A DNA stretch of 64,000 nt from a virus: the IMG/VR virus record IMGVR_UViG_3300043466_003828, positions 1 to 64,000 of that record; one strand, written 5' to 3'. Below are positions 7,618-63,872 of this stretch, one piece after another (the stretch's first letter is position 1; every line of letters starts with the position of its first letter). The notes under the pieces are model-generated. The model ran no database searches. It saw only the letters and a list, made by a program, of their open reading frames with translations, and was not told the DNA's origin. The translations under genes were made by a program, and so were the position numbers.

Positions 7618-8699
7618 AATCAAACTCCAGTCAATCAGTACTATCGTCCTTCCTAAAGAGCACAAAAGGTGAACATTATAACTTTGAAGATGAAAAGATT
7701 TTCAATGTATCTACCGGATCTCTTCTTTTAGATTCCGAGATGGGTGGGTCTTTGGAGGTTCCAGCGATCTTGCGCTTTACTGGAGTAAGCGGAGGTGGAA
7801 AAACTAGCTCGGCTCTTCTTATTATGAAGAATTTCCTAGATACGGTTCCCAAGGGAAAGGGTTTTCTAGTAAAGGCGGAAGGTAGGCTTAATTCCAATGT
7901 AAAGAACGTGTCTGGAGTAAAGTTTGTAGATAAGGCTGAGGATTGGGTTGACGGAACCTGCTTCGTATTACGCACAAATATTTATGAGAATGTTGCTAGT
8001 ATTATTCTAGAACTTATTAAAAATAATCCAGATGATTCAAGGTATTATTTTCTAATTGATAGCATGGATGCTCTTATCGCTAAGAACGATGCGGCAAAAG
8101 GTTTTGAAGACAGTCAAAAGGTTGCCGCTGGTGCGGTTATTAGCTCGCATTTTCTTAAGATGATCATGTTACCATTGTCAACTTTTGGTCATGTTTGCGC
8201 CCTAATTTCACAAGTTCGTTCGAATGTTCAAATTAATCCTTATGCGAAAACAGATCCAAAGCTTACAAACAGTTCTGGTGGTAACGCTTTACAGCATTAT
8301 GCGGATTGGATTTTTGAATTCCAGCCTAGATACAAAGCAGATCAAATAGTAGAAGATGGAAAAATAATCGGCCATTGGGCAAAAATAGTTCTCCGTAAAA
8401 CTACTAATGAAAAAGAAGGAACAGAAATATTATACCCAATTCGTCATGGCAGAACAGGAGGAAATAGCATCTGGATTGAGTATGAAGTATCTGACATGTT
8501 AATTCAATGGGGATTTGCAAAAAAGTCTGGCGCATGGATCAATCTTGACTCCAAGCTCGTAGACGAAGTTTCGAAAGAAACTGGTCAAGCAGTGCCAAGT
8601 ACAATACAAGGAATGGAAAAACTAAGAACCTTTTTAGAAGAAAATAAAGAAATCTGTCTTTACTTATTTAATAAGTTTAAAGGGGCGCTAGCAAAGTGA
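7599..8699 (+). CDS. uvsX: UvsX/RecA-like recombinase
   Basis: 366 residues. ATP-dependent strand-exchange protein for recombination-dependent replication and repair. Walker A is GVSGGGKT (62-69) and Walker B is YYFLIDS (149-155). ISQVR (about 202-206) and NSSGGNAL (about 225-232) resemble the L1/L2 DNA-binding region of the RecA/UvsX core. Length is closer to T4 UvsX (391) than to bacterial RecA (about 350). The following glycosyltransferase gene begins within its stop codon (GTGA). Confidence 0.85.
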   Translation: MAKEEIKSNSSQSVLSSFLKSTKGEHYNFEDEKIFNVSTGSLLLDSEMGGSLEVPAILRFTGVSGGGKTSSALLIMKNFLDTVPKGKGFLVKAEGRLNSNVKNVSGVKFVDKAEDWVDGTCFVLRTNIYENVASIILELIKNNPDDSRYYFLIDSMDALIAKNDAAKGFEDSQKVAAGAVISSHFLKMIMLPLSTFGHVCALISQVRSNVQINPYAKTDPKLTNSSGGNALQHYADWIFEFQPRYKADQIVEDGKIIGHWAKIVLRKTTNEKEGTEILYPIRHGRTGGNSIWIEYEVSDMLIQWGFAKKSGAWINLDSKLVDEVSKETGQAVPSTIQGMEKLRTFLEENKEICLYLFNKFKGALAK

Positions 8700-10346: not shown

Positions 10347-11158
10347 TAATAGATTGCTTCACATTCTGGAAAGAGCTAGATATTTTAGAAATAAGGCTCA
10401 ACGAACTATATTCCACTGTTGATTATTTTGTGCTCGTGGAAGCCACCCACACACAAAGTCTGCAGCCAAAGCCATTATATTTTGAAGAAAATAAACAAAA
10501 GTTTTCTAAGTTTCTAGACAAGATTATACATATAAAGGTAGAAAATACCGTAGATATTTCTCAATATCCTTGGGCCTTCGAGAACTATCAAAGATCCTGT
10601 ATATCCCAAGGCTTAAATCGGCTTAATCTTGATGACAATGATATTGTCCTTATTTCGGATGTTGATGAGATACCGAGCGCAAACGCACTTAAAAATTACC
10701 TACCAAATCTAAATGAAATTTTATGCTTTGGAATGACATACAATGTTTATTATTTAAATTTAATCATGAGACATAAAGTGTGGACTGGCACCGTGGCAAC
10801 AAAATGGAAATTTGCCAAACAAATAGACCCACACCCCCTTATTAAGGTAAGAGACAGGCTTCCTCAAAGTTTAATAATACCAAATACCGGATGGCATTTG
10901 GGGTACCAAGGTGGAGAAGAGATAATCTTTGAAAAATATTTTTCATGTATAGAGCCATTTAATAAAAACGACATTCCGTCGAAAGAACTGTTTTCACAAG
11001 TATTTAAAGAATATGCCAGAAATGGTGGATGTTTTATTTTCTGTGACAACTTATCTCGCAAAGATTTGACGCTAGATCAAATAGAAATTAAGTCTGGAAA
11101 CTTACCAGATTTTATTATAAACAATCAAGATAAATTTAAATCTTATTTACTATCATGA
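10343..11158 (+). CDS. glycosyltransferase family 17-like
   Basis: 271 residues. MIIDCFTFWKELDILEIRLN (1-20), PKPLYFEEN (42-50) and the metal-binding SDVDE (105-109) are characteristic of GT17, the family of beta-1,4-mannosyl-glycoprotein N-acetylglucosaminyltransferases. Bacterial and phage members act on unknown acceptors. GWHLGYQGG (about 182-190) matches the later conserved block. Overlaps its neighbours by 4 nt at both ends, so it is part of a coupled operon. Confidence 0.85.
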   Translation: MIIDCFTFWKELDILEIRLNELYSTVDYFVLVEATHTQSLQPKPLYFEENKQKFSKFLDKIIHIKVENTVDISQYPWAFENYQRSCISQGLNRLNLDDNDIVLISDVDEIPSANALKNYLPNLNEILCFGMTYNVYYLNLIMRHKVWTGTVATKWKFAKQIDPHPLIKVRDRLPQSLIIPNTGWHLGYQGGEEIIFEKYFSCIEPFNKNDIPSKELFSQVFKEYARNGGCFIFCDNLSRKDLTLDQIEIKSGNLPDFIINNQDKFKSYLLS

Positions 11159-62646: not shown

Positions 62647-63066
62647 ATGGAATATAAATATACTCCAGAAAACATAACCTCGTTGGATAAAAATGAGGTT
62701 TTTGTTTTTGGTAGTAACCTTGCTGGAATTCATGGGGCCGGTGCCGCAAAACTTGCCCATACTAATTTTGGCGCAATATATGGAAAGGGAAATGGCATTC
62801 AAGGACAATCCTACGCCATTCCAACAAAAGACTTTGCAATAGAAACACTTGAGTATACTAATATTGAAAAACATGTTCAAGACTTTATTACTTTTGCCAG
62901 AGAAAATCCTAAAAAAATCTTTCTAGTTACTCTAATTGGTTGCGGATTGGCTGGATATAACCCAAAAGATATCGCGCCATTATTTTACTCTGTTCCATTG
63001 AATGTAATTTTACCAAAAGAATTCGCCAGCGATGCCTACAACAAGAGATTCTTTAATGAAGATTAA
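62647..63066 (+). CDS. macro-domain-like protein (A1S_2505-type)
   Basis: 139 residues. YTPENITSLDKNEVFVFGSN then LAGIHGAGAAKLA (25-37) and GQSYAIPT are characteristic of the A1S_2505-type phage macro-like proteins. The G-x-G-A-A loop would bind ADP-ribose or a related nucleotide. A role in countering NAD- or ADP-ribose-based host defence is possible but not shown. It overlaps the next gene by 11 nt. Confidence 0.75.
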   Translation: MEYKYTPENITSLDKNEVFVFGSNLAGIHGAGAAKLAHTNFGAIYGKGNGIQGQSYAIPTKDFAIETLEYTNIEKHVQDFITFARENPKKIFLVTLIGCGLAGYNPKDIAPLFYSVPLNVILPKEFASDAYNKRFFNED

Positions 63067-63742
63067 ATATAAACTAAAAAATATTGGTGAGAATATTTTT
63101 CTCTGCACAATAAATAATCATTACGATCTTTGCATGACGTTTTGTCGTAGTCAAGAGTTTTACGAATCGCCATACAAAGCAATTCGAGGCAAAAATTTTA
63201 AACTTTTAGACTTTATGAGCCTTTACGCAAAGGATAGTGAAGATGGGGTTTTCACATACCCGGCGGATTGGGTTGGATTTAATATACCAAGCAATGTTTT
63301 GGAAAATCTTTACTATAATCCTATTCAAGATATTAATGATTATGATCATACTGTAAAAGAAATACTGACCAAAATCGGTAAAAATCTAAAAACCAAGGAT
63401 AAGCGTTACTATTTAATTGCCGCTGTGCCCAACGATATTGAAACAATTTCACACGAAATTGCACATGCATTATACAATCTAAATAAAAACTATAAAAAAG
63501 ACATGGATGCCCTGACAGATAGCATACCAAAACCAATATACGTTAAACTTTTAGACACTCTTTTTGCCCTTGGCTATTGCAAACAAGTAGCTAAAGATGA
63601 AATTCAAGCTTATTTTTCGAATGATTCTTACATGTTTAATGACAATTTAAAACTCAAGGACAGAAAAAAACTTAAGAAATTTGAGTTACAGTATAAAAGC
63701 ATATATAATAAATACAAAACCAGTCTTAAAATAAAGATTTAA
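63056..63742 (+). CDS. HExxH putative metallopeptidase, 228 residues
   Basis: ATG 63056 (MKIKYKLKNIGENIFLCTIN) is preferred over an in-frame start at 63032. H133-E-I-A-H137 (DIETISHEIAHALYNL) is a zincin motif, followed at a distance by an acidic helix (VAKDEIQAYFSND) that could supply the third ligand. Similar proteins occur in large phages without known substrate. The stop codon directly abuts the tRNA gene. Confidence 0.65.
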   Translation: MKIKYKLKNIGENIFLCTINNHYDLCMTFCRSQEFYESPYKAIRGKNFKLLDFMSLYAKDSEDGVFTYPADWVGFNIPSNVLENLYYNPIQDINDYDHTVKEILTKIGKNLKTKDKRYYLIAAVPNDIETISHEIAHALYNLNKNYKKDMDALTDSIPKPIYVKLLDTLFALGYCKQVAKDEIQAYFSNDSYMFNDNLKLKDRKKLKKFELQYKSIYNKYKTSLKIKI

Positions 63743-63825
63743 TGAGCAGTGGAGGAATTGGTAAACTCGGAGGTCTTTGGAACCTCTGTCGTAAGACGCT
63801 GAACGTTCAAGTCGTTCCTGCTCAG
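63743..63825 (+). tRNA. tRNA with UUG anticodon (Gln) and long variable arm
   Basis: Acceptor stem TGAGCAG (63743-63749) pairs with CTGCTCA (63818-63824), discriminator G63825. D stem GAG/CTC (63752-54/63766-68) with loop containing TTGGT. Anticodon stem GAGGT/ACCTC (63770-74/63782-86), loop CTTTGGA, anticodon TTG (63777-63779). Variable region of 14 nt with a GTC/GAC mini-stem. T stem GAACG/CGTTC with loop TTCAAGT (63801-63817). No CCA is encoded. The U1-A72 pair and G73 suit glutaminyl-tRNA synthetase, but the type-II variable arm is foreign to Gln tRNAs. Confidence 0.8.
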
Positions 63826-63872
63826 CTTTATATTTTTATTCATATTATGAAAATTAATGTGTATTAATTAAT

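Follow-up and report, generated by a model that had tools for sequence, protein, structure and literature searches.

Long variable arms are taken as the mark of leucine, serine and bacterial tyrosine tRNAs, and both annotation and isotype models lean on this. A phage gene with the anticodon of glutamine on a long-armed body raises the question of which amino acid the molecule carries and where its body came from. We investigated such a gene in a stretch of 64,000 nucleotides (the window), which covers positions 1 to 64,000 of the virus record IMGVR_UViG_3300043466_003828 (65,035 bp). The sequence-only reading had offered three answers: a leucine tRNA whose anticodon drifted, a real glutamine tRNA with a remodelled body, or a mis-charged tRNA that recodes CAA.

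Structure, surroundings and conservation of the gene

The tRNA gene lies at 63743-63825 on the plus strand and forms a complete cloverleaf with anticodon UUG, which reads CAA and CAG. ARAGORN, the check proposed beforehand, called a single tRNA in the window, Gln(ttg), at 63743-63826 (+), and the Rfam tRNA model RF00005 scored 63743-63825 at 50.3 bits (gathering score: 29). Parsed into standard parts, the molecule forms 23 of 23 helical pairs, including all seven of the acceptor stem TGAGCAG/CTGCTCA with U1-A72. CCA is not encoded; base 63826 is the first after G73. The features of the locus are as follows.

63032..63742 (+): upstream ORF of 236 amino acids without Pfam match; its stop codon is immediately followed by the tRNA gene
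63681..63709 (+): promoter-like site TTGAGT-17-TATAAT, about 33 bp upstream of the tRNA; the frequency of such sites in the region is not above chance
63743..63825 (+): type-II (class II) tRNA-Gln(UUG) without encoded CCA; ARAGORN, Rfam RF00005, conservation in four related phage contigs
63743..63749 (+): acceptor 5' strand TGAGCAG with U1 and G2; position 3 is A (G in the related contigs G002 and G004, compensated at 70)
63752..63768 (+): Leu-like D arm GAGGAATTGGTAAACTC with a 3-bp stem and an 11-nt loop; G10-C25, A14, A15, A20a; parse and profile scores
63775..63781 (+): anticodon loop CTTTGGA on a 5-bp stem; anticodon UUG, G37; ARAGORN and parse
63787..63800 (+): variable arm TGTCGTAAGACGCT, 14 nt, T-GTC-GTAA-GAC-GCT; stem GTC/GAC, loop GTAA
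63801..63817 (+): T arm GAACG-TTCAAGT-CGTTC, 5-bp stem
63818..63825 (+): acceptor 3' strand CTGCTCA (A72) and discriminator G73

The sequence-only reading had described a long-armed Gln(UUG) tRNA with U1-A72/G73, a D arm like that of tRNA-Leu and a GTC/GAC stem in a variable arm of 14 nt, and was thus correct in every structural point. As grounds for doubt it had named a variable loop of 5 nt or a sequencing error there; the variable arm has 14 nt, outside the 4-5 nt of a class-I body, and the gene recurs in four other contigs. Energy minimization predicts a fold other than the cloverleaf (-27.9 kcal/mol, versus -25.0 for the cloverleaf; z-score -2.2). Folding energy by itself is a weak argument, so covariance-model scores and conservation among relatives carry the case.

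The abutting upstream ORF and the tRNA are possibly co-transcribed. Downstream and beyond the window, an HNH-like frame (containing LDHINGERNDNRIENLRILCPNCH) was recognized by eye at L002 18107-18866, corresponding to about 64106-64865 of the record; it sits between the tRNA-Gln and a tRNA-Val(UAC) at 64865-64943 and is possibly a homing endonuclease in a tRNA array. The best protein matches of the phage are scattered: a virion protein points to cyanophages and the ribonucleotide reductase to phages of Alphaproteobacteria and Staphylococcus.

When 2.9 million viral contigs were scanned by pattern, the same tRNA gene turned up in four further contigs of related phages, namely G002 (140 kb), G003 (58 kb), G004 (154 kb) and G005 (33 kb), of which G003 is essentially the same phage as the window. 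A DNA similarity search of the tRNA and its flank against 50,697 phage records gave no match. The gene is kept in three divergent lineages of related phages with all helices and identity bases intact. G002 and G004 differ from the window tRNA at four of 83 positions, through a compensated change of 3-70 from A-U to G-C, an anticodon-stem change from A-U to G-U and one base in the variable-arm loop; G005 differs at two of 83, both unpaired and in the variable arm. The loop of the arm varies among the relatives (GTAA/GAAA) and its stem is constant. Since the gene recurs in four contigs with differences that keep the structure, the long arm is genuine rather than a sequencing error. The ORF directly upstream shares only 42-44% amino-acid identity with its counterparts in the divergent relatives, while some replication proteins of the same relatives are 86-96% identical. 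The conservation of the tRNA gene beside this fast-changing neighbour indicates that it is under selection.

These comparisons also bear on the idea of a non-functional pseudo-tRNA or a decoy RNA. The lack of an encoded CCA and the predicted minimum-energy fold would fit it, but the helices are all intact and conserved in divergent phages, and other tRNAs of these phages lack an encoded CCA too. We consider a pseudo-tRNA or decoy exceedingly improbable.

A Leu-type body with a Gln-type acceptor end

We compared the window tRNA with position profiles computed from the phage tRNAs of our collection, taking as its core positions 8-9, the D arm, 26, 32, 33, 37, 38 and the T arm. The core of the window tRNA scored highest with a group of short-armed, Leu-like Gln tRNAs (29.8 bits), a similarity that is partly circular as this group was collected by its D-arm pattern. 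The informative contrast is between type-II Leu, which scored 24.8 bits, and ordinary phage Gln, which stayed below 12.7 bits and outside the top six; in leave-one-out trials these two profiles separated 116 of 116 tRNAs. As expected after remolding, the body is nearer to type-II Leu than to ordinary Gln.

The acceptor end gave the opposite picture: here the Leu-bodied Gln group scored 11.6 bits and ordinary Gln 6.3, and Leu fell outside the top five. U1-A72 together with G73 is the commonest pattern among phage Gln tRNAs (44 of 79, a partly pattern-selected set) and occurs in none of 117 phage Leu tRNAs. Phage Leu tRNAs carry A73 in 51 of 51 type-I and 62 of 66 type-II cases, versus G73 in the window tRNA; four Leu tRNAs listed with T1-A72/T73 look like off-by-one ARAGORN starts, and the tRNA of L108 is shifted by one base too.

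Among the Gln identity elements, U35 and G36 of the anticodon, U1-A72, G73, G2-C71 and G10-C25 are all present; 3-70 is A-U in the window and G-C in G002 and G004. The window tRNA has G37 and A38, versus A37 and U38 in E. coli (Gln loops TTTTGAT/TTCTGAT). G37 is common among other phage Gln tRNAs, and this departure is a species detail rather than a disqualifier. The Leu features A15-U48, G18 G19, A20a and the long variable arm are present and the Leu anticodon is absent. We dropped A15-U48 as a Leu marker, as it also occurs in 31 of 50 other phage Gln tRNAs. G73 with a long variable arm is the Ser pattern as well, and the window tRNA has both; the arms of phage Ser tRNAs, however, mostly measure 16-20 nt and their 1-72 pair is G-C in at least 71 of 82 tabulated, as against 14 nt and U-A here. 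The molecule combines a Leu-type body with the acceptor end and anticodon of a Gln tRNA.

Such a mosaic could also have arisen without any Leu ancestor, if insertion had given a long variable arm to an otherwise ordinary line of phage tRNA-Gln whose D arm resembled that of Leu. This D arm is shared by many short-armed phage Gln tRNAs, which provide the best profile match, and their abundance counts against a Leu-to-Gln direction, with the reservation that the similarity is partly circular through the D-arm pattern. On the other hand, the arm has the layout of Leu tRNAs (one base, a 3-bp stem, a GNAA-type loop, two to three bases), and the core matches type-II Leu much more closely than it does ordinary Gln. 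Moreover, the loop CTTTGGA differs by one base, A35 to U35, from the CTTAGGA loop that Leu(UAG) has in the relative G004, and G37 agrees with such an origin. We regard arm insertion as unlikely. About 75 nt offer too few sites for a reliable tree, and the direction from Leu to Gln is inferred.

Decoding of CAA and the glutamine slot

In two conserved window proteins, each aligned with three homologues, CAA positions align with Gln in 40 of 76 cases, with Ser in four and with Leu in none, and CAG positions align with Gln in 25 of 36. CAA is the main Gln codon of this AT-rich phage (378 of 540 Gln codons). These data demonstrate that CAA keeps its glutamine meaning and give no sign of recoding; recoding to Leu was rejected, and the earlier proposal of a mis-charged tRNA that changes the meaning of CAA is not supported.

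G002 and G004 have near-complete tRNA sets, in which no Gln tRNA other than the type-II one was found; Leu has genes of its own there, for Leu(UAA) and Leu(UAG). We conclude that the type-II tRNA fills the Gln slot. Pfam searches of six phage contigs detected neither GlnRS/GluRS-type (PF00749) nor LeuRS-type (PF00133) domains, and charging must therefore be by host enzymes.

Mis-charging would mean that LeuRS, through the body, or SerRS, through G73 and the long arm, loads Leu or Ser, making CAA ambiguous or recoded. The retained Leu-type D arm, A15-U48 and A20a are compatible with this. Identity switches from Leu to Ser through a change of A73 to G73 have been published (PMC9976931), and nematode tRNAs with a long variable arm take Leu in vitro (PMC4300185). 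Against it stand the alignments above, the frequent use of CAA, the missing A73 and the Gln-type 1-72 pair and U35, and we consider mis-charging very unlikely. Partial or low-level mischarging with Ser or Leu is possible and would be invisible to alignments.

The Gln acceptor bases, the conservation, the alignment of CAA with Gln and the position as sole Gln tRNA in broad tRNA sets all favour the second of the three original answers, a real Gln tRNA with a remodelled body. The first, a Leu tRNA with a drifted anticodon, holds as the likely ancestry; as a description of the present identity it fails by the known rules, A73 having been lost.

Origin, distribution and known systems

We propose, with a probability of roughly 0.8, that the gene encodes a functional phage tRNA-Gln(UUG) with a Leu-derived body that arose by alloacceptor remolding and is charged with Gln by host enzymes. 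The body would have come from a tRNA-Leu; the most economical source would be a Leu(UAG) gene, in which exchange of A35 for U35 would turn anticodon UAG into UUG and the acceptor end would be remade to U1-A72/G73. Loss of A73 would take away the key leucine determinant, and acceptor end and anticodon would allow loading with glutamine by host GlnRS, or by GluRS plus GatCAB. Once expressed, the tRNA would read CAA, and CAG by wobble. The long arm would be the inherited Leu arm, presumably neutral and tolerated because GlnRS reads acceptor and anticodon.

According to the identity rules given in PMC9976931, acceptor pairs, G73 and the anticodon are what GlnRS recognizes; the variable loop is absent from the GlnRS determinants named there. 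The same source states that leucylation in E. coli requires A73, and that an amber tRNA-Ser (class II) became a Gln acceptor through two acceptor base-pair changes. The amidotransferase route likewise depends on U1-A72. By these published rules, the gene has the elements for glutaminylation through either route, and its main determinant for leucine is gone. Counted against remolding are the A-U at 3-70 instead of G-C, G37/A38, the retained Leu elements A15-U48 and A20a, and U73 in the type-II Gln tRNAs of L003 and L110, which places some members of the group outside this account.

Further type-II Gln(UUG) genes occur in unrelated phage contigs. We found them in L096/L108 (15-nt arm, U1-A72, G73), in L110 (13-nt arm, U73) and, from the first pattern scan, in L003 (13-nt arm, U73), where the gene adjoins an ordinary class-I Gln tRNA. 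Pseudomonas phage vB_PF_Y1-MI (OR500437.1), an isolate, has a further one, annotated at 10984-11065. Its arm measures 13 nt, it has U1-A72 and G73, CCA is encoded, and the feature table labels it simply tRNA-Gln without remark. In seven representative type-II Gln genes all helices are complete, the distant ones showing 11-13 double-sided pair changes against the window. A looser pattern (Leu-like D arm and YUG anticodon) matched many phage Gln tRNAs, the majority with short variable loops, and had one match among 399 genomes of one phylum. Across 84,980 bacterial and archaeal species genomes (one per species) the strict pattern found zero tRNAs; two matches in contigs of these genomes were rejected as not being tRNAs. 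None of 21 Gln tRNAs in viral contigs chosen by an unrelated tRNA-Pro pattern was of type II, showing that the form is uncommon.

As a separate observation, Leu-bodied Gln(UUG) tRNAs with U73 and odd 1-72 pairs (G-U, A-U, U-U) occur at L003 6106-6188, L110 1250-1333 and L124 1509-1585 (phage Kremar). Judged by their bases, the U73-bearing forms do not fit standard Gln identity.

Other phage tRNAs in our collection also depart from their usual class. A long variable arm is frequent in tRNA-Ile(UAU), with 15 gathered; in the sample selected through tRNA-Pro, six of 27 phage Ile tRNAs have one. The loop of the arm repeatedly contains AGATTA or TAGATGAG, which looks like a conserved feature. Such genes lie at L020 2749-2843 (G002 7982-8076), at G004 138198-138292 (the same gene) and in L082, L096, L152, L162, L176, L187, L198, L211, L224, L229 and L244. 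Conversely, 15 of 47 phage tRNA-Leu in that sample are built on a class-I body, their variable loop measuring 5 nt; across all phage Leu tRNAs of this type tabulated, A73 is kept in 51 of 51. Examples are G002 8401-8478, G004 137798-137873, L066, L075, L085, L102, L110, L187, L198 and others. In one phage (L003/L044, G001), Gln(UUG), Asn(GUU) and His(GUG) each occur as a class-I and as a class-II copy at about 60-64 kb, in an array of about 26 tRNA genes. Adjacent tRNA-Trp (95 nt, 25-nt variable arm) and tRNA-Tyr genes at L048 11168-11262 and 11269-11353 (G005) both have the aberrant T loop AGCGTTA rather than TTCRANN. Finally, tRNA-Ser genes at L056 8130-8220 (G004) and L063 18862-18952 (G002) have anticodon ACU; A34 is an unusual wobble base for AGY codons.

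A reason for the arm would be added, compatibly with remolding, if it were kept to resist host defences that cut tRNAs, either by destroying host tRNA-Gln or by recognizing the class-I variable loop, with the phage copy sustaining translation during infection. The sequence-only reading had already raised escape from host anticodon nucleases. There are precedents: the variable loop of tRNA-Tyr is the site cut by retron-Eco7 and Septu, and its distinctive variable loop makes the T5 tRNA-Tyr resistant to retron-Eco7 (PMC13096335). Phage tRNAs have also been proposed to evade nucleases through changes in the anticodon loop (PMC10264068), and unusual variable arms recur across several isotypes of phage tRNAs. 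However, the absence of long arms from the tRNA-Pro-chosen Gln tRNAs and the short arm of most Leu-bodied Gln tRNAs argue against a general advantage, and we regard this function as doubtful. Equally tentative is the wider suggestion that phages repeatedly uncouple arm class from identity (type-II Gln, Ile(UAU), Asn, His and Trp; type-I Leu), with swapped bodies as an adaptation against tRNA-cutting defences that recognize shape and the tRNA-Gln as one instance.

The remolding process itself is already known, as are long-armed tRNAs with foreign anticodons in nematodes. A conserved phage class-II tRNA-Gln is unreported in the open-access literature that we searched, which is not proof of absence, and examples are already in public records, unremarked. 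In alloacceptor remolding and anticodon shifts (PMC4783518, PMC3923123), a tRNA gene likewise takes the anticodon and identity of another family. Those cases come from metazoan mitochondria and eukaryotic nuclei, whereas here the change is found in phages and leads from class II (Leu) to the normally class-I Gln. A natural, conserved class-II tRNA-Gln would mean that evolution can move a tRNA across the class boundary and leave the code unchanged.

The nematode nev-tRNAs (PMC4300185) similarly join long-armed bodies to anticodons other than those of Leu, Ser or Tyr. They are charged with leucine in vitro, whereas the phage tRNA has a Gln-type acceptor and CAA means Gln; G73 and the CAA alignments make nev-tRNA-like leucine charging appear unlikely here. 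The T5 tRNA-Tyr (PMC13096335) is another phage tRNA with a changed variable region, but Tyr is class II already and resistance is reported for T5 only. A functional precedent, as described in PMC9976931, is the laboratory conversion of an amber tRNA-Ser to Gln, in which a class-II body is charged with Gln once its acceptor pairs are Gln-type. That tRNA is an engineered suppressor; the phage gene is natural, has the normal UUG anticodon and may be the natural counterpart of such Ser-to-Gln identity switches. The tRNA-Gln of vB_PF_Y1-MI shares the natural Gln(UUG) anticodon, long arm, U1-A72, G73 and Leu-like D arm, and differs in its encoded CCA, other stem sequences and 13-nt arm. As this phage is an isolate, charging and nuclease resistance are directly testable in it.
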